Origin: Candidatus Parcubacteria bacterium
Lineage (GTDB): Bacteria > Patescibacteriota > Patescibacteriia > UBA1558 > GWA2-36-10
Assembly (NCBI GenBank): GCA_002869235.1
Contig: PKTI01000047.1
Coordinates: forward strand, 4,092 to 38,441
Direction of reading: 5' to 3'
Length of the DNA: 34,350 bases
The notes below the pieces were generated by a model. That model did not search any database and was not told the DNA's origin. It saw nothing but the letters and a program-made list of their open reading frames with translations. This document shows, in pieces, positions 8,333 to 15,818 of this stretch. Both the position numbers and the translations under genes were made by a program. How positions within the stretch are numbered: position 1 is the stretch's first letter; each line of letters begins with the position of its first letter.

Positions 8333-9385
8333 ATGAAGAAAATAAAGGCATTTTTACTGCCTCTTATCATATATACATTATTATTTAGCCCTTTTAGTGT
8401 CAGCGCTGAAGAAGTGCGCGACATTGTTTTTCCTATTCAGGAAGGCTGGGGTTATAATTTTTCTGATACTTACGGAGCAGCTCGTTCTGGCGGTCGTAGC
8501 CACGAAGGTACAGATATTATGGTTGATCAAATGACTCCTTTGGTAGCGGCAGTTGATGGTAGGGTGACTTATTTGGTAGACGAGGATAAAGGCTGGGGCT
8601 TGGCTCTGTACATAGAAGACGAAGATGGATATTCATATAGGTATTTACATATAAACAATGATACTCCTGGCACAGACGACGGCAAAGAAATTCGCGCCTA
8701 TGCTTTCCCCAAAAATATTGTCAGGGGCACTAGAGTGACAGCTGGACAGGTGGTAGCTTTTGCTGGCGATAGTGGTAATGCTGAATATACGGCTCATCAT
8801 TTACATTTTGAAATGTGGACACCTGATAGAGAATCAATAAATTCTTATCCAAGCTTAATGGCAGCCATTGGTCAGCCAGTAGCTACAGAAAACACAGATG
8901 GAGATGATTTGAAAGCAGATTATCACTTTATGCGTGATTTGGAGCTGGGCAATGAAGGCGATGATGTACGCGCCTTGCAAGAATATCTCAATCAAAATGG
9001 TTTTTATGTATCTTCCTCAGGAGTAGGCTCACCAGGAAATGAAAGTGATTATTTTGGTCCAGCTACCCAAGAAGCCCTAGCTAGATTTCAAAGGGCCAAT
9101 GATATCAGCCCAGCGGCAGGATTTTTTGGGGTTATTACTAGAACTTTTGTAAATGAAGCTGGTATTATAGCTAGCGATGATGACGACGAAACTATCAAAA
9201 CAGGCTGGCTTATAAAGGAAAAATCTTCTCCTAGAGTATATTATGTAGCGCCAAATAGAGAATTAATGTGGGTAGTAAATGAAGACTCTGCTTTGCGTAA
9301 TTTTGGCGAAGATTGGAACAAAGACATCAAAGAATTTGATGATTTGAAAGAACTAGAACTGCCATTTGGAGATTATATGGTTTAG
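8333..9385 (+). CDS. Secreted M23 peptidase with peptidoglycan-binding domain
   Basis: A signal peptide (residues 1-25, ending SVSA) precedes an M23/LytM metallopeptidase domain at about 30-175. The zinc motif HxxxD is H57-D61 (HEGTD), and the second motif HLHFE has H156 and H158. The YLH at 104-106 matches the family's active-site strand. Residues about 200-275 form a PG_binding_1 domain (LGNEGDDVRALQEYL, then YFGPATQEALARFQ). The C-terminal GWLIKEKSSPRVYYVAP segment resembles small modules seen in Patescibacteria surface proteins. The protein should cut peptide cross-links in the cell wall outside the membrane, either in wall remodelling or against other cells. A terminator follows at 9452. 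Confidence 0.93.
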   Translation: MKKIKAFLLPLIIYTLLFSPFSVSAEEVRDIVFPIQEGWGYNFSDTYGAARSGGRSHEGTDIMVDQMTPLVAAVDGRVTYLVDEDKGWGLALYIEDEDGYSYRYLHINNDTPGTDDGKEIRAYAFPKNIVRGTRVTAGQVVAFAGDSGNAEYTAHHLHFEMWTPDRESINSYPSLMAAIGQPVATENTDGDDLKADYHFMRDLELGNEGDDVRALQEYLNQNGFYVSSSGVGSPGNESDYFGPATQEALARFQRANDISPAAGFFGVITRTFVNEAGIIASDDDDETIKTGWLIKEKSSPRVYYVAPNRELMWVVNEDSALRNFGEDWNKDIKEFDDLKELELPFGDYMV

Positions 9386-9540: not shown

Positions 9541-12500
9541 ATGTTTAAAGCAAAAGTTTGGACACCCATAATAGCGGTTTTTCTAATAGCTGCTGTATTA
9601 CTGGGTTATTTTTATTTTGGCTTTGGTAAAAATTTGGTACCTGATACACCAGACAATTTTTCCAAGCTGGTCATCAACACGGCTTACGCACAGGACAATT
9701 TTGAAGTAGAAGCAGCCTCAATTGATAGTACAGGCATAGATAGCGGTACTACCTTTATGATCAAGAGTAAAGATGCGATTTCTAGCCTTGATTCTTTGGC
9801 TGATAATGTCAGATTTTATCCAGAAGTTGATTATGAAATTACCCAAATTGATGAGCACAATTTCAATGTAATTCCCAAAAACCCCTTGGAAACCAGAAAA
9901 GTTTATCGTCTAGCTATTGATTCAAAGTATATTGATGAAGATGGCCTTGAACAAAAAAGAGATTATTCTTGGGCCTTTCAAGTCAAGGATGAATTCAAGG
10001 TTTATGGTACTTTGCCTCGTGACAAGGCTACTAATGTTCCTACCAACACCGGTATTGAGCTCAATTTTAGTCACGAAAACGTCGTAAACTATGAAGAGAA
10101 TTTTAGCATTGAGCCAAAGGTAAACGGACGCTTTGAACTTCACAAAAGAACACTGGTTTTTGTACCAGAAAAATTGGATCCAGGAATGATTTATAAAATC
10201 ACCATGAAAAAAGGAGTAGGAGTTGATCAGAGCACAACAGCCTTATCAGAAGACTATTCTTTTTCTTTTGAAACCAGTCCTACCAACGAACAAAGAGAGC
10301 ATACGCCTAGTTCAAGTTTTGGCTTTAACGTAGAATTCAATGAATTTCCTGACACCATGGAGCCAGCTCTTTCCGTGAGGACTTACAATGTAGACCAAAC
10401 AGAGTTTCCAGTCAGAGTATATGCCTTCAAAAGTGTTGATAATTTTTTGACAGCACTGGAAAAGACAAATGATTATCCTTATTGGGCTAGTTATTCTAGA
10501 AGTGCCAACCAGGTTGATAAATCAAACTTACAGGAAATAGGAAACTATAATCTTTCTTTATCAGAATATGATAGAGCCAAGTACTTGGTTTTGCCAGATA
10601 CCTTGCCCAAGGGATTTTATTTGGTAGAAACAGAATACCAAGGCAGAAACAGTCAGGCTTATATCCAGGTTAGCAATGTAGCTGCTTTTTCTAGTATTAC
10701 AAACACAGACACCCTAGTCTGGGTAAATAGCCTAGATACAGGTGGGCCCGTAAATGACGCTACAGTACAAGTAGCTGGCACAAATGTTCAGGCTAAGACA
10801 AATGATCAAGGTGTAGCTACTTTTGATAGTCGTCAGGCATTTGCCATCAATGATGATAATCAGGAAAAAGCTAGAAAAAATAGATTTTTAAAAATTCAAT
10901 CTGCTGATTCTATAATGGTAGTACCATTTTGGTTGTATCAAGGTTATCTCAGTTCAAGTAGTAATACAGATTTTTATTGGCATCACTTCTATACCGATAG
11001 AACCATGTATCAGCCAACTGATATGATCAATTTTTGGACTTTTATAAAACCCAGAAATAGTCAGAGAATTAGTGGTAAGGCCAAAATACGTTTGACCAAT
11101 AGTCGTTATTACAATTATTATAATGAACCAATCCCTATAGTTGAACAAGAACTTGATCTTGATGCCAATAATACTGCTATAGGAAATTTAAAAATAGACA
11201 ACCTTACTCCTGGTGGTTATAGCCTACAGCTTTTGGTAGATGATGAAATTGTTTATAGCAAATACATTAGTATTCAGACATATACCAAGCCAGCTTACCA
11301 GATAGAGGTGACTCCACAAAAACGGGCAGTATTTGCTGGCGAAGATGTGGTAATGGATATAGAAAGTACATTTTTTGAAGGTACTCCAGTAGCTGATCTG
11401 GAATTAAAATATAACACTGACACGAAAATTATTACTGATCAGTTGGGTAGAGCTCAAGTAGTGTTGCCTACTTCATATACGGATTGTTCTATAAGTAGTG
11501 GCTATTGTAATTCGGTCACTTCAAAGGGAATAAACGTATCTCCTGTCAAAGGCGAAGAAGGAGAAATCACAGCTTATGCTAGCACTAGGGTCTATGGTCC
11601 TCATGTGATGGCTAATGTAAGATTCAACAAAGAAAAAGACAGTAGTCAGGCCACTATAACTACATCAGTAAATGATATAGACTTGGACAAGATAAATATA
11701 GATGGAGAATTTAATCCTCAGGCAGGACCGTCAGCTAACAAAAGTCTTCAAGCAAAAATTACAGAGGTTACTTATGAAAAAGAAGAAACAGGCGAGTATT
11801 ATGATTTTATCAATAAGATAGTTAGAAAAACTTATAAGTATAACAGGATTGAGACTCCATTTGGTGAGTATTCAGGTACTACAGATCAGAATGGTGAGCA
11901 TGTTTACAATCTTACAGTAGACAAGGATAAAAGTTATTACGTAAATGTTTCCGTAGACGATGGACAGGGTAGGCACGACGTGAAAAGAGCTTATCTTTAT
12001 TCACGTTATGCCCGCACTAGTAGTTACGACAGCTACCGTTTGGTACTAAAAGATACTTCTGATTATAATTTTGCTGTTGGTGAAAAAGTAGAGTTTGAAT
12101 TTTTGAACAATGAAGTACTTTTGCCAGAAGAAGATCAAAGAAATTATCTCTATTACAATTTGCAAAATGGTTTGATGGAATATCAAACCAGTAATAGCCC
12201 AGAATATACCTTCAACTTCAAGGCAGATCACATACCAAATATTTATTCCAAAGGTGTTTGGTTCAATGGTATAACTTATCATGTTAGCTCCAACTATAGA
12301 TATTTTTATGGCTTTAGTGGAGGTGGTAGTAGCCTAGTTGCCTTTGATGCTGAGAGCAAACGTTTGAATATTGATATTCAAACGGACAAGACGGATTATG
12401 TGCCTGGTGAGGATGTAAATATTTCTGTCAAAGTGACTGATCAAAATGGTCAGCCTGTTCAGTCTAGTGTAAATATCAATCTAGTTGACGAAGCTTATTA

Positions 12501-14919
12501 TCAGCTCAGACAGGAGAGTGTAGATACTCTAAATAGTATTTACAATGTGCGCTTGAGTTCAGGTGAGCTGACTCAATATAGTTCACATAAATCAGCCGAG
12601 GCTCTTGGAGCCGATTCTATGGCTGAAGGCGGTGGCTGCTTCTTGGCTGGTACCAAGATAAAGATGGCCGATGGCAGCCAAAAAAATATAGAAGATGTAC
12701 AAATTGGCGATGAAGTGCTTACCTTTTCTGATGAAAAAAATCATCAATTAACCTCAGCCAATGTAGTGGACACAATTTCTCATACAGTGGATGGCTATTT
12801 GGTCATCAATGGATACCTCAAGGTAACCCCAGAGCATAGAGTATTTGTAAATGGTGCTTGGCAGATGATAGGTGAGGCTCAGATAGGTGATTATTTGCTC
12901 AACGAAAAAGGAGAAGGGGTTTTGATTGAAAGCATTGAGGTGGTTATGGATACGGTCAAAGTTTATAATCTAAGCGTCGAACCATACAATACCTATATTG
13001 CCGATGGCATATATGTACACAACCAAAAAGGTGGTCCTCGTGAAGAGTTTGTTGATAATGCTTTGTTTACCTCTTTGGTGACCAATTCAAGTGGGCAGGC
13101 CAGTACTAGCTTTACTTTGCCGGACAACATCACTTCTTGGCGTATTACTAGTCAGGCTCTAAACAATAGTTTGTATGCTGGTTCAAATACAACTAACATC
13201 AATGTGTCTTTGCCAGTATTTGTAGAGCCCAGTTTTGCCAAAGAATATTTGGCCTCAGATGATCCCATAGTAAAGCTCAGAGCTTATGGCAAAGCTCTTA
13301 GTTCAGGAGACAATGTAGAGTTTTCTTTGTCAGCTGAAAGTCTTGATTTTTCCCAGGACAATATGAGTGGCAAAGCCTTTCAAGCAAATTATATTGACCT
13401 ACCAACCCTTAGTTTGGGACAACACAAAATAAATTCAACTGTAGAATTTGCTGATTATAAAGACACAGTCATAAAACCTATTGAAGTAGTAGAATCAAGA
13501 TTAAGAGAAAGTATTCAAAATTTTTATACACTAGAAAAAGGTCTTCAGCCTCAGGGTAGTGAGCAGTATAGAACCAACTTGACATTTAGCGACAGGAATC
13601 AGGGTATGCTCTACCGTGACCTTAGATGGTTGTCATGGACATACGGTGATAGAGTAGATCAAGAATTGTCACGCGTCTTGGCTAGGGACATGCTAGAAGA
13701 GTATTTTGATGAAACCCCATACTATAATTCAAAATTTGAATCTGGTAATTATCAACTCAATGATGGCGGCATAGCTCTTTTGCCTTATAGTGGTTCAGAA
13801 TTTGAATTGAGTGCTCGCTTGGCTTATGTAGCAGCTGATGAATTTGATAAAATAAATTTGGCCAATTATTTTTATGGAATATACAATTCTGAAAATTCCA
13901 ATCAAGAACAGGTGGCTCTGTCTTTGTTTGGTCTAGCCAGTTTAAATGAGCCAATACTCTTACCTCTTCAGGCTTTTGCCAAATTGGATACTTTGACGCC
14001 AAAAGAAAAACTTTATGTTGGTCTAGGTGCTTACAGACTTGGCGATATTGAATTGGCACGACAGCTTTATTTTGAGGTTATGGGACAAAATGCTGAAGAA
14101 ATGGGCGATATGTATACTAGATTGAAAGTTGGCGAAGACGAGGATAGTTATTTGGAGCACACTTCTTTGGCAGCAATACTATCTGCAGCTGTCAATGATA
14201 AATATCATGAATCATTGTGGCAATATGTTCAAGATCATCGTAGCAAAGATATATTGCTTAATTTGGAAAAATTGAGTTATGTTTCTGGACTATTACCAAA
14301 CTTGAACCCAGGAGAAGTGAAGTTTAAGGTAAAAGTCGCTGGTCAAGAAATAGAAAAAACACTGTCTCGTGGTGCTACCTATAGAATTTCAGTTAGCCCA
14401 GAGGATTTACAAAATATTGAGTTTTCTGATATTGAGGGTAGAGTTGGTTTAGTCACTTCTTATGAAGTGCCTATGGTATCTTTGCCAGCAGGAGGGAGTG
14501 ATTATTTGAATCTTCGTAAGGAGTATTATGTAGACGGTGAAAAGACCAACAACTTCAAGGAAAATGATTTGGTAGAAATTAGGATTTATCCTGGCATTGC
14601 CAATGACGCGGTAGAGGGCTCTTATCAGATTACCGACTTAGTTCCTAGTGGTATGTCACCAATAACAGGATACTATTATAGAGGAAGAACCAATCGTTAT
14701 GATTCATGCCTTCGTTATCCTTATAATATTGATGGCCAGAGGGTAAAGTTTATAGTCAACAATAGATGGACAAGCAATTGTAGTGATTATTTCAGATATT
14801 ATGCTAGAGTAGTCAATCCAGGTACCTATACATCTGAGCCAATCTTAATACAAAATTATAAAGACAGTTCAATTTTTGATTATTCTGATAGTAGTCAAGT
14901 TATTATTGATCGTCCATGA
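9541..14919 (+). CDS. Alpha-2-macroglobulin-like surface protein with embedded Hint domain
   Basis: The 1792-residue protein is anchored by an N-terminal membrane helix (about 8-28). Two Ig-like (Big_5) domains cover about 60-250, and an MG2 domain with YTDRTMYQPTDMINFWTF lies near 480-575. An MG6-type segment (INLVDEAYYQL) lies near 980. A 129-residue Hint domain (C1033-N1161) comes next, followed at once by the A2M family domain (FTLPDNITSWRITSQAL, about 1190-1206). The Hint domain therefore sits where macroglobulins carry the bait region. The place of the thioester motif (YGCxEQ) reads TYGDRVDQELS (1367-1377) without cysteine, so covalent trapping is unlikely. Bacterial members are thought to trap proteases near the envelope. 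No pbpC is adjacent, unlike the YfhM/PbpC pair. The stop overlaps the next gene (ATGA). Confidence 0.92.
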   Translation: MFKAKVWTPIIAVFLIAAVLLGYFYFGFGKNLVPDTPDNFSKLVINTAYAQDNFEVEAASIDSTGIDSGTTFMIKSKDAISSLDSLADNVRFYPEVDYEITQIDEHNFNVIPKNPLETRKVYRLAIDSKYIDEDGLEQKRDYSWAFQVKDEFKVYGTLPRDKATNVPTNTGIELNFSHENVVNYEENFSIEPKVNGRFELHKRTLVFVPEKLDPGMIYKITMKKGVGVDQSTTALSEDYSFSFETSPTNEQREHTPSSSFGFNVEFNEFPDTMEPALSVRTYNVDQTEFPVRVYAFKSVDNFLTALEKTNDYPYWASYSRSANQVDKSNLQEIGNYNLSLSEYDRAKYLVLPDTLPKGFYLVETEYQGRNSQAYIQVSNVAAFSSITNTDTLVWVNSLDTGGPVNDATVQVAGTNVQAKTNDQGVATFDSRQAFAINDDNQEKARKNRFLKIQSADSIMVVPFWLYQGYLSSSSNTDFYWHHFYTDRTMYQPTDMINFWTFIKPRNSQRISGKAKIRLTNSRYYNYYNEPIPIVEQELDLDANNTAIGNLKIDNLTPGGYSLQLLVDDEIVYSKYISIQTYTKPAYQIEVTPQKRAVFAGEDVVMDIESTFFEGTPVADLELKYNTDTKIITDQLGRAQVVLPTSYTDCSISSGYCNSVTSKGINVSPVKGEEGEITAYASTRVYGPHVMANVRFNKEKDSSQATITTSVNDIDLDKINIDGEFNPQAGPSANKSLQAKITEVTYEKEETGEYYDFINKIVRKTYKYNRIETPFGEYSGTTDQNGEHVYNLTVDKDKSYYVNVSVDDGQGRHDVKRAYLYSRYARTSSYDSYRLVLKDTSDYNFAVGEKVEFEFLNNEVLLPEEDQRNYLYYNLQNGLMEYQTSNSPEYTFNFKADHIPNIYSKGVWFNGITYHVSSNYRYFYGFSGGGSSLVAFDAESKRLNIDIQTDKTDYVPGEDVNISVKVTDQNGQPVQSSVNINLVDEAYYQLRQESVDTLNSIYNVRLSSGELTQYSSHKSAEALGADSMAEGGGCFLAGTKIKMADGSQKNIEDVQIGDEVLTFSDEKNHQLTSANVVDTISHTVDGYLVINGYLKVTPEHRVFVNGAWQMIGEAQIGDYLLNEKGEGVLIESIEVVMDTVKVYNLSVEPYNTYIADGIYVHNQKGGPREEFVDNALFTSLVTNSSGQASTSFTLPDNITSWRITSQALNNSLYAGSNTTNINVSLPVFVEPSFAKEYLASDDPIVKLRAYGKALSSGDNVEFSLSAESLDFSQDNMSGKAFQANYIDLPTLSLGQHKINSTVEFADYKDTVIKPIEVVESRLRESIQNFYTLEKGLQPQGSEQYRTNLTFSDRNQGMLYRDLRWLSWTYGDRVDQELSRVLARDMLEEYFDETPYYNSKFESGNYQLNDGGIALLPYSGSEFELSARLAYVAADEFDKINLANYFYGIYNSENSNQEQVALSLFGLASLNEPILLPLQAFAKLDTLTPKEKLYVGLGAYRLGDIELARQLYFEVMGQNAEEMGDMYTRLKVGEDEDSYLEHTSLAAILSAAVNDKYHESLWQYVQDHRSKDILLNLEKLSYVSGLLPNLNPGEVKFKVKVAGQEIEKTLSRGATYRISVSPEDLQNIEFSDIEGRVGLVTSYEVPMVSLPAGGSDYLNLRKEYYVDGEKTNNFKENDLVEIRIYPGIANDAVEGSYQITDLVPSGMSPITGYYYRGRTNRYDSCLRYPYNIDGQRVKFIVNNRWTSNCSDYFRYYARVVNPGTYTSEPILIQNYKDSSIFDYSDSSQVIIDRP
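12637..13023 (+). other. Hint (intein-like) domain within the macroglobulin-like protein
   Basis: It begins with the block-A signature CFLAGTKIKMADGS (C1033 as splice-site nucleophile), contains GDEVLTFS, and has block B TPEH (T1096, H1099). It ends NTYIADGIYVHN (H1160, N1161). No homing endonuclease is present. The residue after the C-terminal Asn is Gln, not Cys, Ser or Thr, as in A-type bacterial intein-like domains. Cleavage at either end, rather than clean splicing, is therefore the likelier reaction. Confidence 0.93.
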
Positions 14920-15818
14920 ACAAAATAAACTTTAAGTTTATAATAATTGCATCAGCGATAGTTATTATCGCTGGTGTAATTTTGTTTTATCAAAAAAATG
15001 AAGATAGTGTACAGCCCTTTGATAAGGAAAAGGTAGTAAAAGAATACCAGGCTGTTTTAGTAGAATCTGATTACAATTTATTTTATGCCTCTCTGGAACA
15101 AGTAGATAAGTTTGATATCAAAAAAGATATAAGAGGAGCTATCGTGCCCCATCATGAAGTAGCTAGTGATTATTTGGCCAACTTTTTTTATAGTTTGTCT
15201 GAAAATCAAGATGTAGATACTTTTATAATCTTAGGACCCAACCATAGAGATTTTGCTGCTTGGCCAGCTGTCTCAGCTGAGGTATACTGGCAAACAGATT
15301 TTGGCATCATATATCAAAATGAAGAAATTTTAAGCCCTTTAGTAGAGAGTTGGCAAGTAGTTTATGACAAAGATAATTTTTTGCCAGAGCATTCTATTAA
15401 GGTTATTATGCCTTTTGTAAAAAATTATTTTCCTGAAGCTACTGTGGTGCCTATTATTTTGACCTCCAGACACGATCAAGTTATGTCCAGGGAGCTGGCA
15501 GAAAAATTAGCAGTGTATTTGGAAGACGACAAAACAGTCTTACTTTCATCTTTGGATTTTTCTCATTATCTTAATATAGAGACTGCCAGGCAAAATGATA
15601 AAATTACTTTGCAGGCCATTTATGACAAAGATTATAATTTGATATCTAATTTCAATAGCGACTATTTGGATTCACCGCCAAGTTTGATTACCCTACTTGA
15701 GACGATGGACTTGCTGGATAGTAGTGGTTTTGAGCTTGTCTACAATAGTAACTCAGGTGAAATATTGGGCGGAAACATGAATACAACCAGCTATATAATT
15801 GGATATTTTTCCAAATAG
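14916..15818 (+). CDS. MEMO-family protein (AmmeMemoRadiSam system protein B), membrane-anchored
   Basis: The 300-residue product belongs to the MEMO family, related to class III non-haem dioxygenases. Family motifs are PHHEVASDY (H79/H80), LGPNHRDFA (H110), LPEHSIKV (H159) and SSLDFSHYL (D214, H217). The C-terminal cysteine of some members is not seen near LGGNMNTTSYIIGYF. An N-terminal membrane helix (about 7-25) is an addition relative to cytoplasmic members and puts the domain outside the membrane. The start codon overlaps the macroglobulin-like stop by four bases, so the two are translationally coupled and probably act in the same compartment. The AMMECR1 and radical-SAM partners are absent from the window. 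The substrate is unknown. Confidence 0.88.
   Translation: MNKINFKFIIIASAIVIIAGVILFYQKNEDSVQPFDKEKVVKEYQAVLVESDYNLFYASLEQVDKFDIKKDIRGAIVPHHEVASDYLANFFYSLSENQDVDTFIILGPNHRDFAAWPAVSAEVYWQTDFGIIYQNEEILSPLVESWQVVYDKDNFLPEHSIKVIMPFVKNYFPEATVVPIILTSRHDQVMSRELAEKLAVYLEDDKTVLLSSLDFSHYLNIETARQNDKITLQAIYDKDYNLISNFNSDYLDSPPSLITLLETMDLLDSSGFELVYNSNSGEILGGNMNTTSYIIGYFSK

Follow-up and report, generated by a model that had tools for sequence, protein, structure and literature searches.

A bacterial intein-like domain in the bait loop of a patescibacterial macroglobulin, a candidate for self-excision

An alpha-2-macroglobulin-like (A2M) surface protein encoded by a Candidatus Parcubacteria bacterium carries, in the loop that ordinary macroglobulins offer to proteases as bait, a Hint domain that is nearest – by sequence and predicted fold – to the A-type bacterial intein-like (BIL) domains. 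The domain and the protein are both of a known kind, and it is the place of the one within the other that is telling: a Hint domain at the A2M bait site is undescribed in the searchable literature. On balance, and with moderate confidence, its sequence suggests that this A-type BIL excises itself from the bait loop of its host, a type II-like A2M with no thioester, mostly by cleavage at both junctions, leaving two chains. The features discussed below (Table 1) lie in a window of 34,350 nucleotides, the whole stretch of DNA that was analysed.

Table 1. Features of the Hint-bearing A2M and its downstream neighbour (nucleotide positions in the window; residue numbers refer to the A2M unless stated otherwise)
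Feature	Position	Strand	Evidence
Hint-containing A2M-like surface protein, 1792 aa	9541..14919	+	ORF, Pfam, Foldseek
N-terminal hydrophobic segment (about residues 8-27), membrane anchor or signal	9562..9621	+	sequence
A2M_BRD (PF07703), residues 843-989, includes N-terminal part of the bait-carrying MG domain	12067..12507	+	Pfam E 2.3e-8
N-side linker, residues 1004-1032, ends AEGGG, predicted disordered	12550..12636	+	low pLDDT
Hint / A-type BIL domain, C1033 to N1161, 129 aa	12637..13023	+	PF07591, TIGR01443, 2lwy, 6y75
C1033, block-A nucleophile for N-S acyl shift	12637..12639	+	Cys in 59/59
Block B TPEH, T1096 to H1099	12826..12837	+	T 59/59, H 59/59
Block G His1160-Asn1161	13018..13023	+	HN in 57/57 with complete right junction
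C-side junction Gln1162-Lys1163 (+1, +2), +1 without splicing nucleophile	13024..13029	+	family alignment
A2M domain (PF00207), residues 1175-1231, from the C-terminal part of the bait-carrying MG domain on	13063..13233	+	Pfam E 1.5e-8
Helical TED-like domain (about residues 1355-1587)	13603..14301	+	predicted helices, model residues 756-988
YGDRVDQ at the thioester position, without CxEQ	13642..13662	+	alignment with relatives keeping PYGCxEQ
Memo-family (PF01875) protein with N-terminal membrane anchor, 4-base overlap with A2M gene stop	14916..15818	+	Pfam E 3.6e-29

The host protein, the Hint domain and the bait loop

Pfam, AlphaFold and Foldseek together reveal in the host protein the parts expected of a bacterial A2M, namely a string of MG domains, a bait-region domain, an A2M domain and a helical TED-like domain. 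When an AlphaFold model of residues 600-1792 is compared with known structures, the top Foldseek match is the A2M of Escherichia coli (ECAM; E 1.1e-44), followed by Salmonella A2M and then by complement and animal A2M chains. To judge from the sequence, the cytosolic portion of the protein amounts to a few residues only; downstream of the N-terminal hydrophobic segment, at about residues 48-51, lies a conserved AYAQ motif.

The CxEQ thioester that marks type I A2Ms is absent, YGDRVDQ standing in place of PYGCxEQ. This lack of a thioester agrees with the definition of type II A2Ms (PMC5764988), but a mag-type operon (magABCDEF) is missing, and the gene is flanked by those of an M23 peptidase and a Memo-family protein. 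Without a thioester the protein is unlikely to trap proteases covalently, and the preliminary description of this DNA, which had spoken of a trap, goes unsupported on that point: what is missing, as in type II A2Ms, is the very thioester of the protease-trapping type I proteins. Even so, the type II protein MagD is able to retain a protease without a covalent bond (PMC5764988). Replacement by the Hint domain was considered as the cause of thioester loss and rejected, since the two are not associated: the motif is kept in 5 of 54 Hint-bearing and 4 of 37 Hint-less A2Ms (p 1.0).

The Hint domain itself is recognised by PT-HINT (PF07591; residues 1040-1161, E 8.9e-12) and by the NCBIfam model of the intein C-terminal splicing region (TIGR01443; residues 1140-1161), each above its cut-off. 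Its top sequence match in the PDB is the BIL domain of Clostridium thermocellum (2lwy; residues 1033-1161, E 5e-9), and an AlphaFold model of residues 935-1255 has as its leading Foldseek matches Tetrahymena BIL2 (6y75, E 2.0e-12; also 6tmm) and again 2lwy (E 4.4e-11). In this model the Hint domain is confidently predicted and the two flanking linkers have low confidence; on the N-terminal side pLDDT falls below 50 at about residues 1004-1030 (and at residues 1016-1032 in the model of residues 600-1792). The sequence and fold traits of A-type BILs are found here – a Hint fold of some 130-155 residues with the block-A Cys and the block-B T..H, a terminal His-Asn, and no Cys, Ser or Thr at +1 – whereas class 1 inteins have one of these three residues where this protein has Gln1162. 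The preliminary description had already read C1033 to N1161 as an intein-like domain with the block-A Cys, TPEH and the terminal HN followed by Gln, and Pfam, NCBIfam, the match to 2lwy and the coordinates all confirm it. An intein with a homing endonuclease is ruled out by the domain's length of 129 residues without an insert, as is the delivery of a polymorphic toxin by PT-HINT, given that the Hint domain is followed by A2M, TED-like and MG domains and by no toxin domain.

According to Pfam and the alignment, the Hint domain interrupts the bait-carrying MG domain, parting its two halves at the loop that defines the bait region. A profile built from 16 relatives resumes in human A2M at residue 721, just past the Hint domain; the human bait region comprises residues 690-728. 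In E. coli A2M the same profile aligns up to chain residue 886-903 and resumes at 936-953 (three entries). The gap brackets the disordered bait stretch of that protein, Arg923-Leu942 (PMC4498604), with chain index and residue number equated only approximately; for entry 4rtd, the structure described in that paper, the gap runs from 903 to 953, and any index offset from -11 to +20 keeps the bait stretch inside it. As the E. coli and human alignments both break at the bait stretch, the Hint domain lies in the bait loop. That it occupies this loop, as the preliminary description had proposed, is thus borne out by alignment and predicted fold.

Relatives and the history of the insertion

Searches of the phylum, of named genomes and of the class yielded 59 non-redundant Hint-bearing A2Ms, plus four more (L204-L207), all with the Hint domain at the same single site. 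These answer the call, made with the preliminary description, to look for other macroglobulin-like proteins with a Hint domain here, and their domains keep a fixed place instead of falling at random positions. Most are from Patescibacteria; WOR-1 and Micavibrio each label a single match, perhaps as a result of binning. Two congeneric genomes encode the same A2M with the same Hint site, at 70% and 65% full-length identity, so that neither chance nor an assembly join can account for a combination seen both there and in 59 A2Ms.

Beyond the catalytic residues (Table 1), both junctions are distinctive. The residue preceding the first Cys is Gly in 54 of 57 proteins, and AExG or GxGG stands ahead of it in 53 of 59. 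At +1, the tally over 57 A2Ms is D22 E16 Q8 A5 N3 K1 G1 S1 – Ser once, Cys or Thr never. A Lys follows the terminal HN at +1 to +3 in all 57 A2M Hints, or 61 of 61 with the four later ones, compared with 12 of 16 non-A2M Hints, where it is mostly at +1 (p 0.001); shared as it is with the latter, this Lys was rejected as an A2M-only trait and is a lead only. A rough dN/dS of the Hint domain is about 0.1, like that of the rest of the A2M, with synonymous sites nearly saturated.

The Hint domain is missing from about 40% of the sampled A2M relatives, which means that the family does not require self-cleavage. In 41 A2Ms without it, most of them from Bacillota and Patescibacteria, the Hint site is usually a Gly-rich loop (AExGG-type in 28, GxKGG in 7). 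The stretch between the preceding strand motif and the PDN motif has a median length of 81.5 residues in Hint-less proteins and 83 in Hint-bearing ones with the Hint domain removed, an equality of length that makes the domain a clean insertion. The bait loop of Hint-less A2Ms (e.g. L148, L140, L064) is a conserved Gly-rich motif, GGAExGG; animal A2M bait regions are thought to be variable. A single genome (G489) has both a Hint-bearing and a Hint-less A2M (C25:6005-6952, C1:4261-4845).

A tree of the flanks requires at least five changes of Hint state, by gain or loss, with eight as the best figure. The Hint tree repeats many subclades of the A2M flank tree, and this mirroring speaks for a long joint residence of the domain with its hosts. 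An independent capture of a second Hint type at this site (L067, L068, L072) was suggested by the tree and set aside, the AU test not rejecting a single origin (p 0.77).

The nearest Hint domains outside A2Ms (L194, L195, L196, L197, L199) lie at the very C-terminal end of large proteins that look secreted, with only some 6-12 residues after the HN; L194, L195 and L196 are three Hint proteins in a row. Their layout is Hedgehog-like, and these C-terminal Hints may be devices for surface attachment or release.

Proposed processing and its alternatives

A-type BILs end in His-Asn, lack a +1 nucleophile and mainly cleave, yet they can splice; they form an N-terminal thioester and cyclise their Asn, and the freed amine can attack the thioester, leading to ligation (PMC4031507). 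By the same chemistry, and judging by the invariant residues, Cys1033 of the folded Hint domain would form a thioester with Gly1032, and Asn1161 would cyclise, breaking the Asn1161-Gln1162 bond. With no nucleophile at +1, the reaction would mostly end as cleavage at both junctions and release of the Hint domain. Full excision appears the likeliest reaction because both reactive ends are strictly conserved. The product would be a two-chain A2M of about 1032 and 631 residues, whose chains presumably stay associated through the split MG domain, just as the pieces of A2Ms cut by proteases do; for the type II A2M MagD, the two pieces are known to remain associated after proteases cut the bait (PMC5764988). 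The protein would thus open by itself the loop where proteases cut ordinary A2Ms, in a reaction that could be regulated or slow. Part of it, small or dependent on conditions, may instead be ligated via the alpha-amine of residue 1162 or the Lys1163 side chain. Splicing, according to the preliminary description, needs Cys, Ser or Thr; this holds for class 1 inteins, but not for A-type BILs, which are able to splice without a +1 nucleophile (PMC4031507).

It is possible, if somewhat doubtful, that ligation is in fact the main outcome: Gly1032 would be joined downstream, through the alpha-amine of residue 1162 or an isopeptide bond to Lys1163, restoring a single-chain Gly-rich loop and making the Hint domain a tolerated, intein-like passenger. 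In its favour, the Gly-rich motif is interrupted cleanly, without loss of residues, and the strict retention of the chemistry at both junctions would be explained as well by selection for splicing. The closest structural match, Tetrahymena BIL2, links its two flanks through an isopeptide bond to Lys (PMC8616854), and the invariant Lys of the A2M Hints could favour such a ligation, although a Lys after the HN is common in non-A2M Hints too. Against splicing stand the absence of a +1 nucleophile in 56 of 57 proteins and the mainly cleaved products of BILs (PMC7664689, PMC4031507), as well as the lack of a homing endonuclease and the long residence implied by the many subclades on which the Hint and A2M trees agree.

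If the Hint thioester were instead a relocated warhead, replacing the lost A2M thioester, Gly1032 would be passed to an amine or another nucleophile on a partner or surface and the N-terminal half anchored covalently in a Hedgehog-like manner. BIL2 does transfer its own flank onto other proteins (PMC8616854), the window protein has no A2M thioester, and the closest non-A2M Hints, with their short tails after the HN, have the C-terminal placement that such a transfer recalls. The scenario is nevertheless very unlikely, as the Hint domain and the A2M thioester occur independently – five proteins have both – and the invariant Asn, which also serves C-terminal cleavage, would be needless for pure transfer. 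The same invariance bears on the suggestion that the domain is inert, a folded insert merely filling or shielding the bait loop: catalytic positions unchanged in 57-59 of 59 A2Ms would serve no end in such a domain, and we find this scarcely probable.

Neighbouring genes, significance and comparison with known systems

Where there is room downstream, the A2M gene is followed by an extracytoplasmic Memo-family gene in 54 of 93 loci (30 of 53 Hint-bearing, 24 of 40 Hint-less), and the pair spans Patescibacteria, Bacillota and Acidobacteriota (e.g. L081, L082, L083, L148, L135). Just upstream of the A2M gene in the window is an M23 peptidase with a peptidoglycan-binding domain (8333-9385), kept in a locus of the same genus (L082). 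An ECF sigma gene (Sigma70_r2, r4) lies immediately upstream in 21 of the 48 loci with a Hint domain and in 9 of the 35 without one; such genes are found at L083:2168-2749, L088:2349-2978, L049:3723-4337 and L148:2343-2963 and in about 26 other loci. Both linkages occur with and without the Hint domain, and the idea that either needs it was therefore rejected.

Among A2Ms with a placeable membrane segment, the sigma neighbour occurs only if at least 30 residues precede that segment (27 of 43 compared with 0 of 34, p 7e-10). This layout of genes and proteins makes an anti-sigma sensor role probable for the sigma-adjacent A2Ms; in the two A2Ms beside a sigma gene that were scanned from their N-terminus, Pfam found no anti-sigma domain. 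The window's own A2M has neither a cytosolic domain nor a neighbouring sigma gene. For RsgI anti-sigma factors, signalling begins with a self-cleavage outside the membrane (PMC12203970), and by analogy one might – tentatively, for we think it rather unlikely – picture a family of self-cut macroglobulin sensors. In these, the bait-site Hint domain would open the ectodomain (and partly reseal it, perhaps via an isopeptide bond to the Lys at +1 to +3), the bait cut would serve as a built-in, pre-cut joint, later force, binding or proteolysis would separate the chains, and the sigma-linked relatives would signal across the membrane to their ECF sigma factors.

It takes a single cut in one loop, made by a foreign protease, to activate A2Ms and complement proteins. 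In the conserved group of bacterial A2Ms described here, that loop holds a single-use cutter of the protein's own, which, if working, would open a protease-free route to the cut form, provide a natural tool for making two-chain A2Ms, and give a purpose to BIL domains, about whose biological role little has been established. Through the link to sigma factors, the idea of a signalling role can be put directly to the test, and this in a phylum from which few surface proteins have been characterised. None of the papers searched, which were open-access, describes a Hint or BIL domain joined to a macroglobulin in this way.

Among known systems, the A-type BILs of C. thermocellum (2lwy) and Tetrahymena thermophila (BIL2, 6y75) resemble the window Hint in length, fold, block-A Cys, block-B T..H, His-Asn ending and lack of a +1 Cys, Ser or Thr. 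They differ from it in host and in its fixed site, the A2M bait loop; the window Hint is known from sequence and predicted fold. The PT-HINT domains of polymorphic toxins belong to the same Pfam family, but the window Hint lies inside its protein, followed by a large conserved C-terminal half and by no toxin domain.

On the macroglobulin side, the type I proteins of E. coli (YfhM/ECAM) and Salmonella are the closest solved A2M structures, and the Hint insertion falls at their bait stretch; they have the thioester that the window A2M lacks and are activated by a foreign protease. With the type II MagD of Pseudomonas aeruginosa it shares the A2M fold, membrane targeting and the absence of a CxEQ thioester, whereas its Hint domain in the bait loop, the Memo gene next to it instead of a mag operon and its divergent sequence set it apart. 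Finally, RsgI, with its SEAL domains, is a membrane protein with an autocleaved extracytoplasmic domain (PMC12203970), as is proposed for the window A2M, and many A2M relatives adjoin an ECF sigma gene; the A2M Hint differs from it in both fold and chemistry, and the analogy is one of logic.
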